Source of the DNA: Streptomyces sp. TN58
Lineage (GTDB): Bacteria > Actinomycetota > Actinomycetes > Streptomycetales > Streptomycetaceae
Direction of reading: 5' to 3'
NCBI RefSeq assembly: GCF_001941845.1
Contig: NZ_CP018870.1
Coordinates: 3,938,501 to 4,002,500 of the forward strand
DNA: 64,000 bases
The stretch's first letter is position 1. Every line of letters starts with the position of its first letter. Position numbers and translations under genes: made by a program. Positions 57,387 to 61,876 of the stretch are shown one piece after another. The notes beneath the pieces were generated by a model. The model worked only from the letters and a program-made list of their open reading frames with translations, did not search any database and was not told the DNA's origin.

Positions 57387-57577
57387 CGTGCCGTCGGACA
57401 GATGGGTCGGGCACGCGGTCGTCATGCGGCCGACATGCGCCATTGGAGTCGCCGCGATAGTCCGATAAGTGGACTTGCCTGCGGGGTATCCCGCCGCGGA
57501 CGGCATCGGTTCCCACGCTACCGATGTGGCCGACGAGGCCCACCACGATCGTTCGACCGGTTTCGAGAAGGAGTGGT

Positions 57578-58690
57578 ATGCGTCCTGAGAACAGGTCCAG
57601 GCCGGCCCTGGGCCCGCTGCCGAGGAGCAGCCGGCGCAAGGCGGGCACGCTCGCATCGCTGGCACTGGTGATGGTGGGGGTGGCCAGCCCCGCCGTCGCC
57701 GTGGCGCAGAGTACCCAGGCGGCCGAGCGGGTCAGCGCGGCGACCCCCGCGGGCGGGGACCACTGCAGGCCGGACGGCCATCATCACCGCCCGGACCACC
57801 GCCCGGACCACCGTCCGGACCAGGGACCGGACCAGGGACCGGACCAGGGACCGGACTTCAACCCGGACGAGGGTCCCTGGGCGGCGGGCCTGATGGCCGG
57901 CCCCAACGGCGACGACAGGTGTGAGGAGGGGAGGCCCGGACCGGCAGGGCCGACGGGCGCCACAGGCGCCACCGGGGCGACGGGTGCGGACGGCGCCGAC
58001 GGCGCGGACGGTGCTACGGGTGCCACCGGTGCGGATGGTGCGCCCGGCGCCACGGGCGCCACAGGCGCGACGGGTGCGGATGGTGCGCCTGGTGCCACGG
58101 GCGCTACGGGTGCCACCGGTGCGGATGGTGCGCCCGGCGCCACGGGTGCCACGGGCGCGACCGGCGCCACGGGCGCGGACGGTGCCACCGGTGCCACGGG
58201 CAGCACCGGCACCTCCGGGCTGAACGGCGCTGACGGTGCCACCGGGGCGACCGGTGCCACGGGTGCGGACGGCGCCGTCGGCGCCACGGGAGCCACTGGC
58301 GCCACCGGCCCCTGCAGCGACATCGACAGCATCGCGCCGTCGGGCACCGAGTCGTTCAGCGCCGCCCTCACGAACGGCATCGCCTACGCCGGCCGAGCGA
58401 CCACGACCGGAGGCGTGCCGGTCTGGCAGAACATCACGGACGCGGACAACCCGGGCTTCCCGTTCGGCAGAGCCTGCGGCATCTCCATCATCGACCAGGG
58501 CAACAATGCCTTCATTCAGGTCCTGACCACGGACAACAGGGTCTACCAGACCCACGGCGACACCAACATGAACAACTTCATCTGGGACGAGGGCTGGATC
58601 GAACTGAGCCCCGGCCCGACCGGAGTCCTGCGCGGCAAGTCCTTCAAGGGAGACATGATGCTCGGAGCTCCCCCGAACCGCCTCCGCTAG
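57578..58690 (+). CDS. Secreted collagen-like protein (long form)
   Basis: A 370-residue protein beginning [10 protein letters not shown] behind GAAGGAG. A signal peptide covers about residues 20-44 ([22 protein letters not shown]). A Pro-Asp tetrapeptide repeat follows, then 42 uninterrupted Gly-X-Y triplets at residues 118-243. Of these 23 are GAT and nine GAD. A C-terminal globular domain begins GPCSDID and contains [19 protein letters not shown]. Bacterial collagen-like proteins form triple helices. The downstream paralogue at 60123 shares the signal, triplets and terminal domain. The long repeat region makes length vary among strains likely. Function unknown. Confidence 0.9.
57788..57877 (+). 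repeat. Tetrapeptide tandem repeat (PD[H/Q][R/G]) in collagen-like gene
   Basis: About seven four-residue units such as RPDH and GPDQ, encoded by a 12-bp tandem repeat in which three copies (about 57820-57855) are nearly identical. Residues 71-100 of the collagen-like protein; likely to expand or contract. Confidence 0.85.
57929..58306 (+). repeat. Gly-X-Y triplet repeats
   Basis: Forty-two in-frame Gly-X-Y codon triplets. A 15-residue unit of the [15 protein letters not shown] kind occurs about three times, with synonymous codon changes between copies. Confidence 0.92.
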
Positions 58691-58703
58691 GAGAGCCAGC
58701 GCG

Positions 58704-58749
58704 GAGGGGCCGGACGCATCCCGGATCTGGCGGATGCGTCCGGCCCCTC
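58704..58749. terminator. Bidirectional terminator between collagen-like gene and GT2 gene
   Basis: A perfect 18-bp stem with a 10-base loop lies between the convergent collagen-like gene and the glycosyltransferase gene, 13 bases after the collagen-like stop. Confidence 0.8.
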
Positions 58750-58774
58750 GGTCATACGCCGACAGCGCGTCCCC

Positions 58775-59887
58775 TCAGGCCACCACCTGGTACTCCGGCC
58801 CCAGCTTGGACAGCGCGAACGCGCGGTTCTCACCCACCCGTTCGCGCTGGCTCTCCGGAAGCCCGCCCTCCCGCAGGAGGCGGTCGCAGCACTCCAGCGA
58901 CTCCTCGTACGCGCCGACCCAGTAGGCGGCGACCGCGAGCTCGTCGAGCGCGCGCCACTCGTACCAGTCGAACTCCACGAACAGGATGTCCTCGGGGCGC
59001 GGGATCCGCGCCGCCTGGCGGGCGAACAGGTACGCCAGCTGGAAGCGGCCGTCGAGGCGGCACAGGCGCGCCAGATCACCGAGCGCCTCCGCCCGCCCGG
59101 GGCGGCTCTCGTGGGCGCGGAGGTAGCGGTCCGTCACCTCGGCCGGCGGCCGCCGGAGCCGCGCCGCGAGCCGGGCCGCGTAGAGCTGGGCGCAGTAGGC
59201 CTCCTCGGCGAAGCCGCCCATGGACGCCCGCCGGTCGTAGGCGGCCAGGGACTTCTCCGGCTCGCCCGCGTCGCGCCAGCTCTGGGCGAGATAAAAGGCG
59301 TAGCGCGCGTTCTCGGGTTCCTTGAGCAGGCCCTTTTCGAGGATCTCGGCATCGCGGAGGTACTTGTCCCGGTCGCTGCCTTCGCCCTGGCGGGCTCCTC
59401 CGCCGACGATGCGGATATGGAAGCCTTCGAGTACTCCGCGGGTGAACGGCTCGTCGCAGTCGAGGTACTCGTGCAGCACGCCGACGTATTTCCAGGGCAA
59501 TCGGGTGGAGACGAGGGCCGGCCGCCAGTGGATGACGGGACGGTGGTGCACCGCGACGCCGTACGAATCGAAGGTGAGCTCCGGCATACGGAATCCGGAA
59601 TCGATTTCGATCACGTCGTCGGCGTCGACGAACAGCAGGTAGTCCGCGCTGGAGCGGGCCAGGTCGATCGCCTCGGTGCGGCTTCCGTCGAATCCCTTCC
59701 AGGGGCGTTCGTGCAGGACACCGGGGAGATCACCGAGGAATTCCCGGATGATCTCCTGGGTGCCGTCCGTCGACCCGGTGTCCACGATCACCCAGGTGTC
59801 GATCAAAGGGCGTACGGATTCGAGACAGCGCCTGATCACCGCGGCCTCGTTCTTCACGATCATGTTCAGGCAGATTTTTGCTTTCAC
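58775..59887 (-). CDS. GT2-family glycosyltransferase with TPR-like C-terminus
   Basis: A 370-residue protein from GTG 59887 (VKAKICLNMIVKNEAAVI); an upstream ATG at 59980 is less likely. The GT2 catalytic domain has WVIVDTGSTDGTQEIIREF and the metal-binding DADD in YLLFVDADDVIEID. The C-terminal half has helical repeats with tetratricopeptide character (NARYAFYLAQSWRDAGEPEK, YWVGAYEESLECCDRLL). No membrane helix. It lies between two collagen-like genes, converging on the first. Glycosylation of their Thr-rich triplets is a plausible but untested role. Confidence 0.85.
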   Translation of the reverse strand: MKAKICLNMIVKNEAAVIRRCLESVRPLIDTWVIVDTGSTDGTQEIIREFLGDLPGVLHERPWKGFDGSRTEAIDLARSSADYLLFVDADDVIEIDSGFRMPELTFDSYGVAVHHRPVIHWRPALVSTRLPWKYVGVLHEYLDCDEPFTRGVLEGFHIRIVGGGARQGEGSDRDKYLRDAEILEKGLLKEPENARYAFYLAQSWRDAGEPEKSLAAYDRRASMGGFAEEAYCAQLYAARLAARLRRPPAEVTDRYLRAHESRPGRAEALGDLARLCRLDGRFQLAYLFARQAARIPRPEDILFVEFDWYEWRALDELAVAAYWVGAYEESLECCDRLLREGGLPESQRERVGENRAFALSKLGPEYQVVA

Positions 59888-60122
59888 GGATCCCGTCCAC
59901 GGTGGGGGTGAAGACGATCGTGAGGCGACCGTAGGGATCCGGCCAAAGGGGTGCAAGGAAGCCACGAGGAGAGCCGCCATTGGGGCCCTGTCGCTGGTCC
60001 GATGAGATGACTGACGCGCGGGGCGACCGGTGCTTCCAATCCGATTTACCCACTATGGGCAAGGCGGCCCGTCCGGGCCGATCGCACATGGTTCCAATCG
60101 GTTTCGAGAAGGAGCGGCGTAT

Positions 60123-60890
60123 ATGAGCCCCGTGAACAGGACCAGGTCACCCCTTGGGCCGGTGGCCCGGCGGAGTGCTTTGGTGAAGGGAGGCACGCTG
60201 GCGTCACTCGCCCTGGTGGTGGCGGGCATCGCCAGCCCGGCGTTCGCCACCGCGCAGAGCATCGAGGCGCCCGAGACGGTCCGGGTGGCCGGTCCGGCCG
60301 GCGGCGGAGACTGCAAGGCGAAGCAGGACTCGAACTACGACCCGAGAACCGCCGGCACCCAGGCGGGTGCCCGCGGCGGCGACGACGACTGCGAGGGCCT
60401 GCGGGGGCCGACGGGTCCCACGGGGCCGCGCGGCCCGCGGGGCGAGCCGGGCGAGGACGGGGCCGACGGCGCCACAGGGGCGACGGGCGCCACGGGTCCG
60501 TGCACCGCCCTCGCCGCCTACAAGCCCAACGCGGCCACGGAGGTCAAGGCGGTCCTGGTGAACGGGCAGGCCTGGGTCGGCATCCGAAGCCTCACCCCGG
60601 CACCGCCGGATGACTTCGAGTGGAACAACCTGAGCAACAACACCGCCTTCCCCGCCGGGGCGTGCGGCATCTCGGTCAGTGACCAGGCCGGCCTCGTCAA
60701 CGTCGAGACGGTGGCTCCCGACGGGCGCGTCTGGGAGACCACCTGCACGACGGATCCGGGGAACAACCCTCCGTCCCTCACGTGCGCCGCCCCGTGGGCC
60801 CCGGTGAACGTGCTGGTGGACAGCCCGCCGCTGCGTACCCGGGCCGACGAGGCCATGGCCCACAACCACCTGCCGAAGGCGCTGAAGTAG
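60123..60890 (+). CDS. Secreted collagen-like protein (short form)
   Basis: A 255-residue paralogue starting ATG 60123 behind AAGGAG. The signal peptide is [23 protein letters not shown], ending near residue 44. There are only 11 Gly-X-Y triplets (residues 92-124: GLR, GPT, GPT, GPR, GPR, GEP, GED, GAD, then three GAT), followed by GPC as in the long form. The globular C-terminal domain has ACGISVSDQAGLVNVETVAP. A 16-base segment of the 5' untranslated region (60099-60114) is identical to that upstream of the long form (57558-57573), so the two arose by duplication. Function unknown. Confidence 0.88.
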   Translation: MSPVNRTRSPLGPVARRSALVKGGTLASLALVVAGIASPAFATAQSIEAPETVRVAGPAGGGDCKAKQDSNYDPRTAGTQAGARGGDDDCEGLRGPTGPTGPRGPRGEPGEDGADGATGATGATGPCTALAAYKPNAATEVKAVLVNGQAWVGIRSLTPAPPDDFEWNNLSNNTAFPAGACGISVSDQAGLVNVETVAPDGRVWETTCTTDPGNNPPSLTCAAPWAPVNVLVDSPPLRTRADEAMAHNHLPKALK

Positions 60891-60911: not shown

Positions 60912-61721
60912 CTACTCCGGCCGGTGGTCCGGGCCGCCGAAGTCCGGGCTGGTGAAGTCCGGAGGCGTGTAGCCGGGAGGGGAGCCCTGTGACGGGGCTC
61001 CCGGACTGGTGAAGTCGGGCCGGGTGTACCCCAGACTGGGGATGCGCCCGGCCCCTGGCGTGCGGGGGGTCGGGAAACCCGGGCCCGCGCTCGGATCGGC
61101 CAGCGCGTCCCGCAGGAACGGGATGATGCCGCGCTCCAGCAGGGCGTGCCGCCAGGCCTCGCGGGCCCGCGCCACCTCGTCGGGTATCGCCTCGGTCTCG
61201 TCCGCCGCCACCTCGGTCGCGCTGTTGCGGACGGCGGTGACCAGCAGGCCGATCACGGCGAAGAGCAGGGCGGCCGCGGTGAGCGCGCCGAAGAGCCAAC
61301 CGGTCGTCAGCATCGTCTGCGCGAAGGCCGGTTCCGGTTCGATCATCTTCAGGATGTAGCCGACGAGCAGGAAGATCAGCATGGCGGTGCCCGCCAGGAC
61401 GGGTGCGAGGACGGCGACCACGGCGCTGACGCCCGCGCCGCCGCCGCTCCGGTCCTCGCCCTCGTCCTCGATCGCGGCGGGTGCGCCGAGCAGCTGGTCG
61501 CGCCGCTCCCCGCGGACCTTCACATAGTGGCCGTACTCGGCAGCGGCGGCCGCCGCCAGCAGGGCGCTGGCGCCCTGGGCCATCGTGCGCAGCTGTTCGG
61601 CGTTCAGCCGCTCGCCGAGAGAGGCGAGTTCGGGCCGCTGGTCCGCGGCGCGCAGTGCCTCGTCGATGAGCCGGTCGAACTCCGGTCGGTCTTCGGTCAG
61701 CAGGTGCGGAGCGCTGGTCAT
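60912..61721 (-). CDS. Two-helix membrane protein with C-terminal FTSPxF repeats
   Basis: About 269 residues from ATG 61721 (MTSAPHLLTEDRPEFDRLID), with GGGGG six bases before; ATG 61727 is close. An N-terminal helical domain of some 90 residues precedes two membrane helices (AVVAVLAPVLAGTAMLIFLLVGYIL and WLFGALTAAALLFAVIGLLVTAV). The cytoplasmic tail ends with repeated GYTxPDFTSP units. I do not recognise the family. It starts 155 bases from the phosphatase gene and ends 21 bases from the collagen-like gene. Confidence 0.75.
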   Translation of the reverse strand: MTSAPHLLTEDRPEFDRLIDEALRAADQRPELASLGERLNAEQLRTMAQGASALLAAAAAAEYGHYVKVRGERRDQLLGAPAAIEDEGEDRSGGGAGVSAVVAVLAPVLAGTAMLIFLLVGYILKMIEPEPAFAQTMLTTGWLFGALTAAALLFAVIGLLVTAVRNSATEVAADETEAIPDEVARAREAWRHALLERGIIPFLRDALADPSAGPGFPTPRTPGAGRIPSLGYTRPDFTSPGAPSQGSPPGYTPPDFTSPDFGGPDHRPE

Positions 61722-61876
61722 GTGCATCCCCCGATGCTCCGTAGAAGCCGGTTTGCCGCGCGTAGACCCGGGTGCCGGCTGAAACGGAGGAGAGCCTGCT
61801 ACGGATAGGGCGATGGTAGAGCGCCCACGCCACACCGTGACAGGGGCTTTCCGGAAATACCCCTCTGCGTGAGCTC

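Follow-up and report, generated by a model that had tools for sequence, protein, structure and literature searches.

A probable collagen-glycosylation module in Streptomyces: a GT2-TPR transferase encoded beside secreted collagen-like proteins

The 64,000-nucleotide stretch of Streptomyces sp. TN58 analysed here (contig NZ_CP018870.1, positions 3,938,501 to 4,002,500; the window, numbered from its first letter) contains a locus of three genes. A glycosyltransferase of 370 amino acids (58775..59887, minus strand, GTG start), recognised from Pfam matches and predicted structure, lies between two genes for secreted collagen-like proteins (CLPs) on the plus strand, CLP-A (57578..58690, 370 amino acids) and CLP-B (60123..60890, 255 amino acids), which were delimited by open reading frames, Pfam and a triplet scan. 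Read by eye, both CLPs consist of an N-terminal signal peptide (57578..57706 in CLP-A, LGPLPR...ASLALV...AVAVA; 60123..60254 in CLP-B; cleavage sites inferred), a cysteine-containing linker, a collagen region and a C-terminal domain (CTD). The collagen region of CLP-A (57929..58315) comprises 43 uninterrupted G-X-Y triplets, 23 of them GAT, and that of CLP-B (60396..60503) comprises 12, three of them GAT; both regions end in GPC, which these counts include and the 42 and 11 triplets of a preliminary description leave out. That description had further named the CLPs signal-peptide paralogues with related C-terminal domains, and both points hold: the CTDs (58316..58687 and, by alignment with that of CLP-A and relatives, 60504..60887) align at 34% over 83 amino acids (E 6e-11).

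The collagen region of CLP-A matches the Pfam family Collagen (PF01391) above its curated cut-off, that of CLP-B slightly below it, and a six-frame scan of the whole window for runs of at least seven G-X-Y triplets found no others. PF01391 is matched at E ≤1e-3 in six places of the 7.6-Mb genome, two of them at this locus, and three places, CLP-A among them, exceed the curated cut-off. The genome also has a single full-length copy of the transferase. The neighbourhood of CLPs and transferase is not due to chance.

The transferase is matched by Pfam Glycos_transf_2 and by two weaker glycosyltransferase families, and its predicted structure adds a TPR-like half, in agreement with the GT2/TPR-like enzyme originally proposed. 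In the model a GT-A catalytic domain (residues 1–165, 59393..59887) precedes the TPR-like helices (residues 166–370, 58778..59392; minus strand, boundary approximate), so that both would be joined in one protein, as in the SgtA/BclA3-type pair. D88-A89-D90 and H139-E140 are invariant among 27 sequences. A transferase recorded for Streptomyces virginiae is 93% identical to that of the window, which supports the assignment to Streptomyces in the preliminary description. Translation might alternatively begin at an in-frame ATG (59980). No signal peptide was seen in the transferase, and the enzyme would therefore stay in the cytosol.

We determined the distribution of transferase and CTD in 295 Streptomyces genomes, scoring 6 candidates per genome for the transferase and 15 first-look candidates for the CTD. 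The transferase occurs in 68 genomes (77 places including fragments, E ≤1e-20) and the CTD in 69 (101 places); 53 genomes carry both, 15 the transferase only, 16 the CTD only and 211 neither, a co-occurrence with a Fisher p of 2e-30, uncorrected for kinship. Of the 68 genomes, 49 have a CTD gene within 5 kb of the transferase; these neighbours make up 61 pairs, and 51 of the pairs are divergent with the CTD gene 5′ of the transferase gene. From the 77 places we fetched 60 regions, most of 17 kb. Collagen runs of at least eight triplets occur in 50 of them (the run at locus L055 seems to be an artefact), and 39 include one or more CTD genes. When the open frames from the central part of each region are clustered, a transferase cluster present at 56 loci and a CLP cluster at 46 stand out, the other clusters reaching at most 15 loci and several of them representing overlapping frames of known genes. 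Five loci with no CTD (L071, L082, L086, L088, L091) carry collagens with a different C-terminal end and a fraction of threonine at position Y of 0.46–0.82. The linkage of transferase and collagen genes is hence conserved, as the preliminary description had anticipated, and the conserved unit is one transferase with one, sometimes two, CLPs, usually divergent. Two side observations concern gene content. At L054 (5001-11632) a single genome carries several transferase copies in tandem, of which one is divided between frames. Next to clade-1 transferases, divergent genes (L041 7068-7688; L048 6129-7049 and 8160-8972) encode small proteins that by eye resemble TPR proteins and have an N-terminal hydrophobic segment.

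Twelve of the 60 loci share the chromosomal site of the window, between thiC (94–99% identical) and a conserved membrane-protein gene. In the window the latter (60912-61730, no Pfam match) adjoins CLP-B and belongs to the site, not to the module. Six of the twelve loci carry a clade-1 transferase (71–93% identical to that of the window) and six a clade-2 transferase (42–47%), and all twelve enzymes adjoin CLPs with the CTD. One site thus houses different enzymes next to members of a single partner family, and of the genetic evidence this exchange speaks most strongly for a relation between enzyme and partner. In a transferase tree of 114 rows (quick method, midpoint root) the Streptomyces enzymes split into two groups, with 28 and with 34 rows; the group of the window adjoins Holophagaceae inside a mixed, mainly proteobacterial part of the tree, the second sits on a long branch, and the two may have a single origin. 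The order CLP-transferase-CLP, which the preliminary description proposed to look for in other genomes, was seen only in a few close relatives: of the twelve loci, one (L033) resembles the window in having a further CLP towards thiC, and among the best 80 of 151 relatives from a GTDB scan with the window transferase, collagen flanks the enzyme on both sides in L141 (the contig of L033), L143 and L144.

The composition of the collagen triplets differs with the presence of the transferase. The window and the transferase loci supply 47 CTD proteins, all but one with at least six triplets; in these 46 the pooled fraction of threonine at Y is 0.70 over 1547 triplets, and serine is outside the eight commonest Y residues. 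As background we took 59 other collagen loci among the matches listed for 30 hand-picked genomes, 15 with and 15 without the transferase, of which 37 were usable after a frame and signal filter, some perhaps being frame artefacts. Pooled threonine at Y is 0.20 in genomes with the transferase (27 of 35 loci) and 0.04 in those without (10 of 24 loci), and Mann-Whitney tests of linked CLPs against these sets give 2e-8 and 9e-7, respectively. Threonine enrichment at Y goes with the transferase, and the comparison supports threonine as the probable acceptor, in line with the first suggestion that the GAT triplets are glycosylated.

A third set comprised 40 of the 44 places at which the CTD lies more than 8 kb from the transferase or on another contig. 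Of the 39 CTD proteins found there, 26 have at least six triplets and 13 fewer or none; the median threonine fraction of the 26 is 0.10, and L124 alone gives 213 triplets. Values above 0.50 (L102, L104, L106, L124, L134) all occur in transferase-bearing genomes. Genomes that have no transferase (16 loci from 15 of the 16 genomes) contribute four CTD collagens, at 0.12, 0.50, 0 and 0.10. At the loci L101-L140, CTD proteins far from the transferase often carry a charged collagen of the GPKGDR type or none, as if the CTD stalk could be stabilised in two ways. Long (GTT)n collagen-like open reading frames far from the transferase in transferase-bearing genomes (L239, L253) are possible further substrates.

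Several observations weigh against a strict relation between enzyme, partner and threonine. Ten of the 60 fetched transferase loci lack a collagen run of at least eight triplets, and transferase and CTD occur without each other in the 15 and 16 genomes given above. The linked CLPs with a CTD at L060, L075 and L085 are threonine-poor (0.16–0.24), and the transferases of L048, L049 and L056-L058 lie near collagens with fractions of 0–0.10. Conversely, the pooled fraction of the unlinked CTD collagens is 0.32 instead of zero, and the value of 0.50 in a transferase-less genome (L110) is reached with no enzyme. In transferase-bearing genomes, 13 of 22 unlinked CTD collagens are at or below 0.13, which ties the enrichment to particular CLPs, not to the genome. 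Gram-positive collagens at large have 48.3% threonine at Y according to a review (PMC8968730), far above our own background sample, a small set that had passed a filter (37 of 59 loci). Finally, SgtA also takes serine in vitro (PMC7157674), a residue rare at Y in the present collagens.

Linked CLP genes also share an upstream element, which might be a promoter or an operator. That of CLP-A (57432..57476, plus strand), CCATTGG followed by 11 nt and TAGTCCGATAAG..., starts 146 nt 5′ of the start codon; that of CLP-B (59969..60013, plus strand) lies in the intergenic region common with the divergent transferase gene. Expectation-maximisation found the element upstream of 42 linked CLP genes with 18.2 bits, compared to 7.7–8.7 bits in 12 shuffled sets, and the gap-free 45-nt form (CCAT[T/C]GG, 11 nt, TAGTCCGATNNGNTGATA) scores >9 in 37 of the 42. 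A model built from 31 of the gap-free rows recovers the two window sites in a genome scan (E 6e-5 and 0.003, both training rows) and, among the 150 of 1762 first-look candidates that were scored, nothing else below E 0.68. Applied to another 38 loci, of which 20 are transferase loci and 18 come from the 40 with an unlinked CTD, it yields 10 matches at E ≤1, eight of them at unlinked-CTD loci (L102, L103, L105, L106, L107, L114, L120, L134), all but L120 in transferase-bearing genomes. Between element and ribosome-binding site, several 5′ leaders of CLP genes (L036, L065, L070, L081 and others) contain, by eye, an inverted repeat of the GGAAGC...GCTTCC type that might be a leader hairpin.

The CTD appears from its alignment to be a family of its own, with W, G, P and C positions common to 43 CTDs of the window and its relatives. 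Searches of these 43 against Pfam returned scattered matches only, at E 0.045 or worse, and profile searches returned no convincing PDB sequence. Within a sample of 245 genomes from eight genera of the order the CTD occurs in Streptomyces only, and it was not detected at 54 transferase loci outside Streptomyces. The C-terminal fold, left to prediction in the preliminary description, is modelled as all-beta and propeller-blade-like, resembling a single chain of trimeric six-bladed propeller lectins. The strand order of the predicted model and its superposition on RSL, whose architecture is described in PMC10306066, would fit two four-stranded blades per chain. The model matches RSL/BambL with a Foldseek E of 0.02, other propellers scoring equal or better; the CTD differs from these beta-propeller lectins in that profile searches gave no RSL sequence match, although a short divergent domain could escape detection. 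Because the model resembles one chain of such trimers, a collagen trimer could close the six-bladed ring.

For export of the CLPs, Sec is more likely than Tat, judging from the signal peptides: an LGPL-like motif is commoner than RR ahead of the hydrophobic core, which occurs in 25 of 47 linked CLPs with no constant twin-arginine (Tat) motif. This LGPL-like motif, present in the n-region of most linked CLPs (57578-57706, 60123-60254 and relatives), might itself be a targeting motif. Both CLPs end with no wall anchor visible at their C-termini, and a surface or spore-associated filament, as put forward in the preliminary description, is no more than a possibility. The LPXTG adhesins SclA/SclB (NF038330/NF038329) were considered and rejected, CLP-A scoring 54.3 of 400 and 61 of 325 bits and having no anchor.

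Outside Streptomyces the pairing recurs. A collagen run of at least eight triplets lies near 52 of the best 80 GTDB loci, many on short contigs: 19 of 26 in Streptomyces and 33 of 54 in other bacteria, including Comamonadaceae, Burkholderiaceae, Moraxellaceae, one of five Holophagaceae, one Kofleriaceae (Myxococcota) and two metagenome-assembled genomes (MAGs) of Bacteroidota. Pooled threonine at Y is 0.59 in the 36 collagen open reading frames of these 33 loci. Of eight such collagens searched against Pfam, two carry a phage Collar domain and six only Collagen above cut-off. Chance adjacency is unlikely, since 13 of the collagen-linked genomes have just 1–7 PF01391 matches each (E ≤1e-7), and the occurrence of the pair in unrelated bacteria suggests a widespread bacterial route to sugar-modified collagen. 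One MAG contig titled Bordetella parapertussis (L167) carries a transferase relative and a threonine-rich collagen; its title may be a mislabel because the tree places this row among MAGs of environmental betaproteobacteria.

Taken together, we consider it probable that the locus is a dedicated collagen-glycosylation module, in which a cytosolic O-glycosyltransferase modifies threonine of Gly-X-Thr before export. The TPR half would bind the unfolded CLP precursor in the cytosol, and the GT-A half is predicted to transfer a sugar from a nucleotide sugar, by analogy with SgtA perhaps UDP-GlcNAc, to threonine at Y. The CLP would then leave through its N-terminal signal, trimerise and fold into a triple helix in which glycosylated threonine would fill the stabilising place of hydroxyproline. 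The CTD, most likely two beta-propeller blades per chain, would nucleate the trimer and serve as its functional head.

Three other explanations have to be weighed against O-glycosylation of the CLPs. An enzyme acting on a wall polymer or exopolysaccharide, with the CLPs as merely co-regulated neighbours, would suit the versatility of GT2 enzymes and the lower-ranked fold matches of the model, among them the wall teichoic acid enzymes TarS, TarP and RmlT; we regard it as unlikely, given that threonine enrichment goes with the transferase and that several phyla show the pairing although the C-terminal parts of their collagens differ. Somewhat less likely still is an S-glycosyltransferase that uses the cysteines flanking the collagen or in the CTD, and not threonine. 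The best structural match of the model is indeed SunS/ThuS (16–18% sequence identity), glycocin enzymes whose substrate is a bacteriocin cysteine; the NCBIfam SunS model TIGR04195 is matched, at 37.4 bits far under its cut-off of 350, GPC-type cysteines are frequent at the collagen end, and all 43 aligned CTD rows keep one cysteine unchanged. However, no CTD was detected at the 54 non-Streptomyces loci, yet their collagens are threonine-rich, and SgtA, of the same architecture, is an O-glycosyltransferase (PMC7157674). Passive co-inheritance in a genomic island, to which patchy gain and loss (68 and 69 of 295 genomes) and an association test uncorrected for phylogeny would point, is the least likely of the three, as other neighbours vary between loci while transferase and CLP stay, and two transferase clades occupy one conserved site beside the same CLP family.

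Beyond the glycosylation module itself, we tentatively raise a more far-reaching possibility, which we think rather doubtful at present: a bacterial collectin, in which three secreted CLPs form an O-glycosylated Gly-X-Thr triple helix as stalk and their CTDs, with two blades each, a six-bladed propeller lectin head, possibly binding glycans made by the partner enzyme or those of neighbouring cells. It would be one version of a cross-phylum GT2-TPR/collagen module with exchangeable heads (propeller, phage-collar and others), a counterpart of hydroxyproline-stabilised collagen. Hydroxyproline is believed to be absent from most collagens of bacteria (PMC8968730), and the locus family bears on how Gly-Ala-Thr collagens stay folded. 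It offers a genetically tractable system in non-pathogenic bacteria, of one enzyme and one substrate, with natural controls in CTD proteins that have a Lys/Arg/Asp-rich triplet stalk or no stalk. If the glycosylation reading is true, bacteria of several phyla make threonine-rich collagens that are glycoproteins, a point of importance for surface biology and for the production of stable recombinant collagens.

Among known systems, GmaR, an antirepressor with flagellin as substrate, is similar in its GT2 domain (E 2e-13 over 92 residues) and differs in that substrate. Bacillus BclA has a C-terminal globular domain with a TNF-like head and a rhamnose/anthrose oligosaccharide, and Streptomyces is not known to have an exosporium of the Bacillus kind. 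The likeness to BclA is that of a glycosylated collagen-like protein (PMC8968730). In vent-worm cuticle collagen, an animal collagen unlike the CLPs, glycosylated threonine is said to hold helix-stabilising positions (cited in PMC11766948). In the open-access literature, a scope that leaves out most subscription papers, neither a collagen-transferase module of Streptomyces nor the CTD, the upstream element or the cross-phylum spread turned up, and the main text of the review PMC8968730 does not mention Streptomyces. The claim of an undescribed system is partly right: within that literature it holds for these parts and not for the principle, which is published for Clostridioides difficile SgtA and BclA3 (PMC7157674). 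SgtA, compared here by description, has 358 amino acids, a GT-A domain and C-terminal TPR repeats, transfers beta-O-GlcNAc onto threonine in vitro, and is encoded beside the collagen-like BclA3 with its GPT repeats; architecture, similar size and the adjoining threonine-rich collagen gene make this pair, by analogy, a closer counterpart than Bacillus BclA. BclA3 belongs to the spore exosporium and is predicted to have four transmembrane helices at its C-terminus, whereas the CLPs have signal peptides and a CTD modelled as propeller-like. New relative to the SgtA/BclA3 principle are the head domain, the secretory signal, the upstream element common to the CLP genes and a distribution that is far broader.

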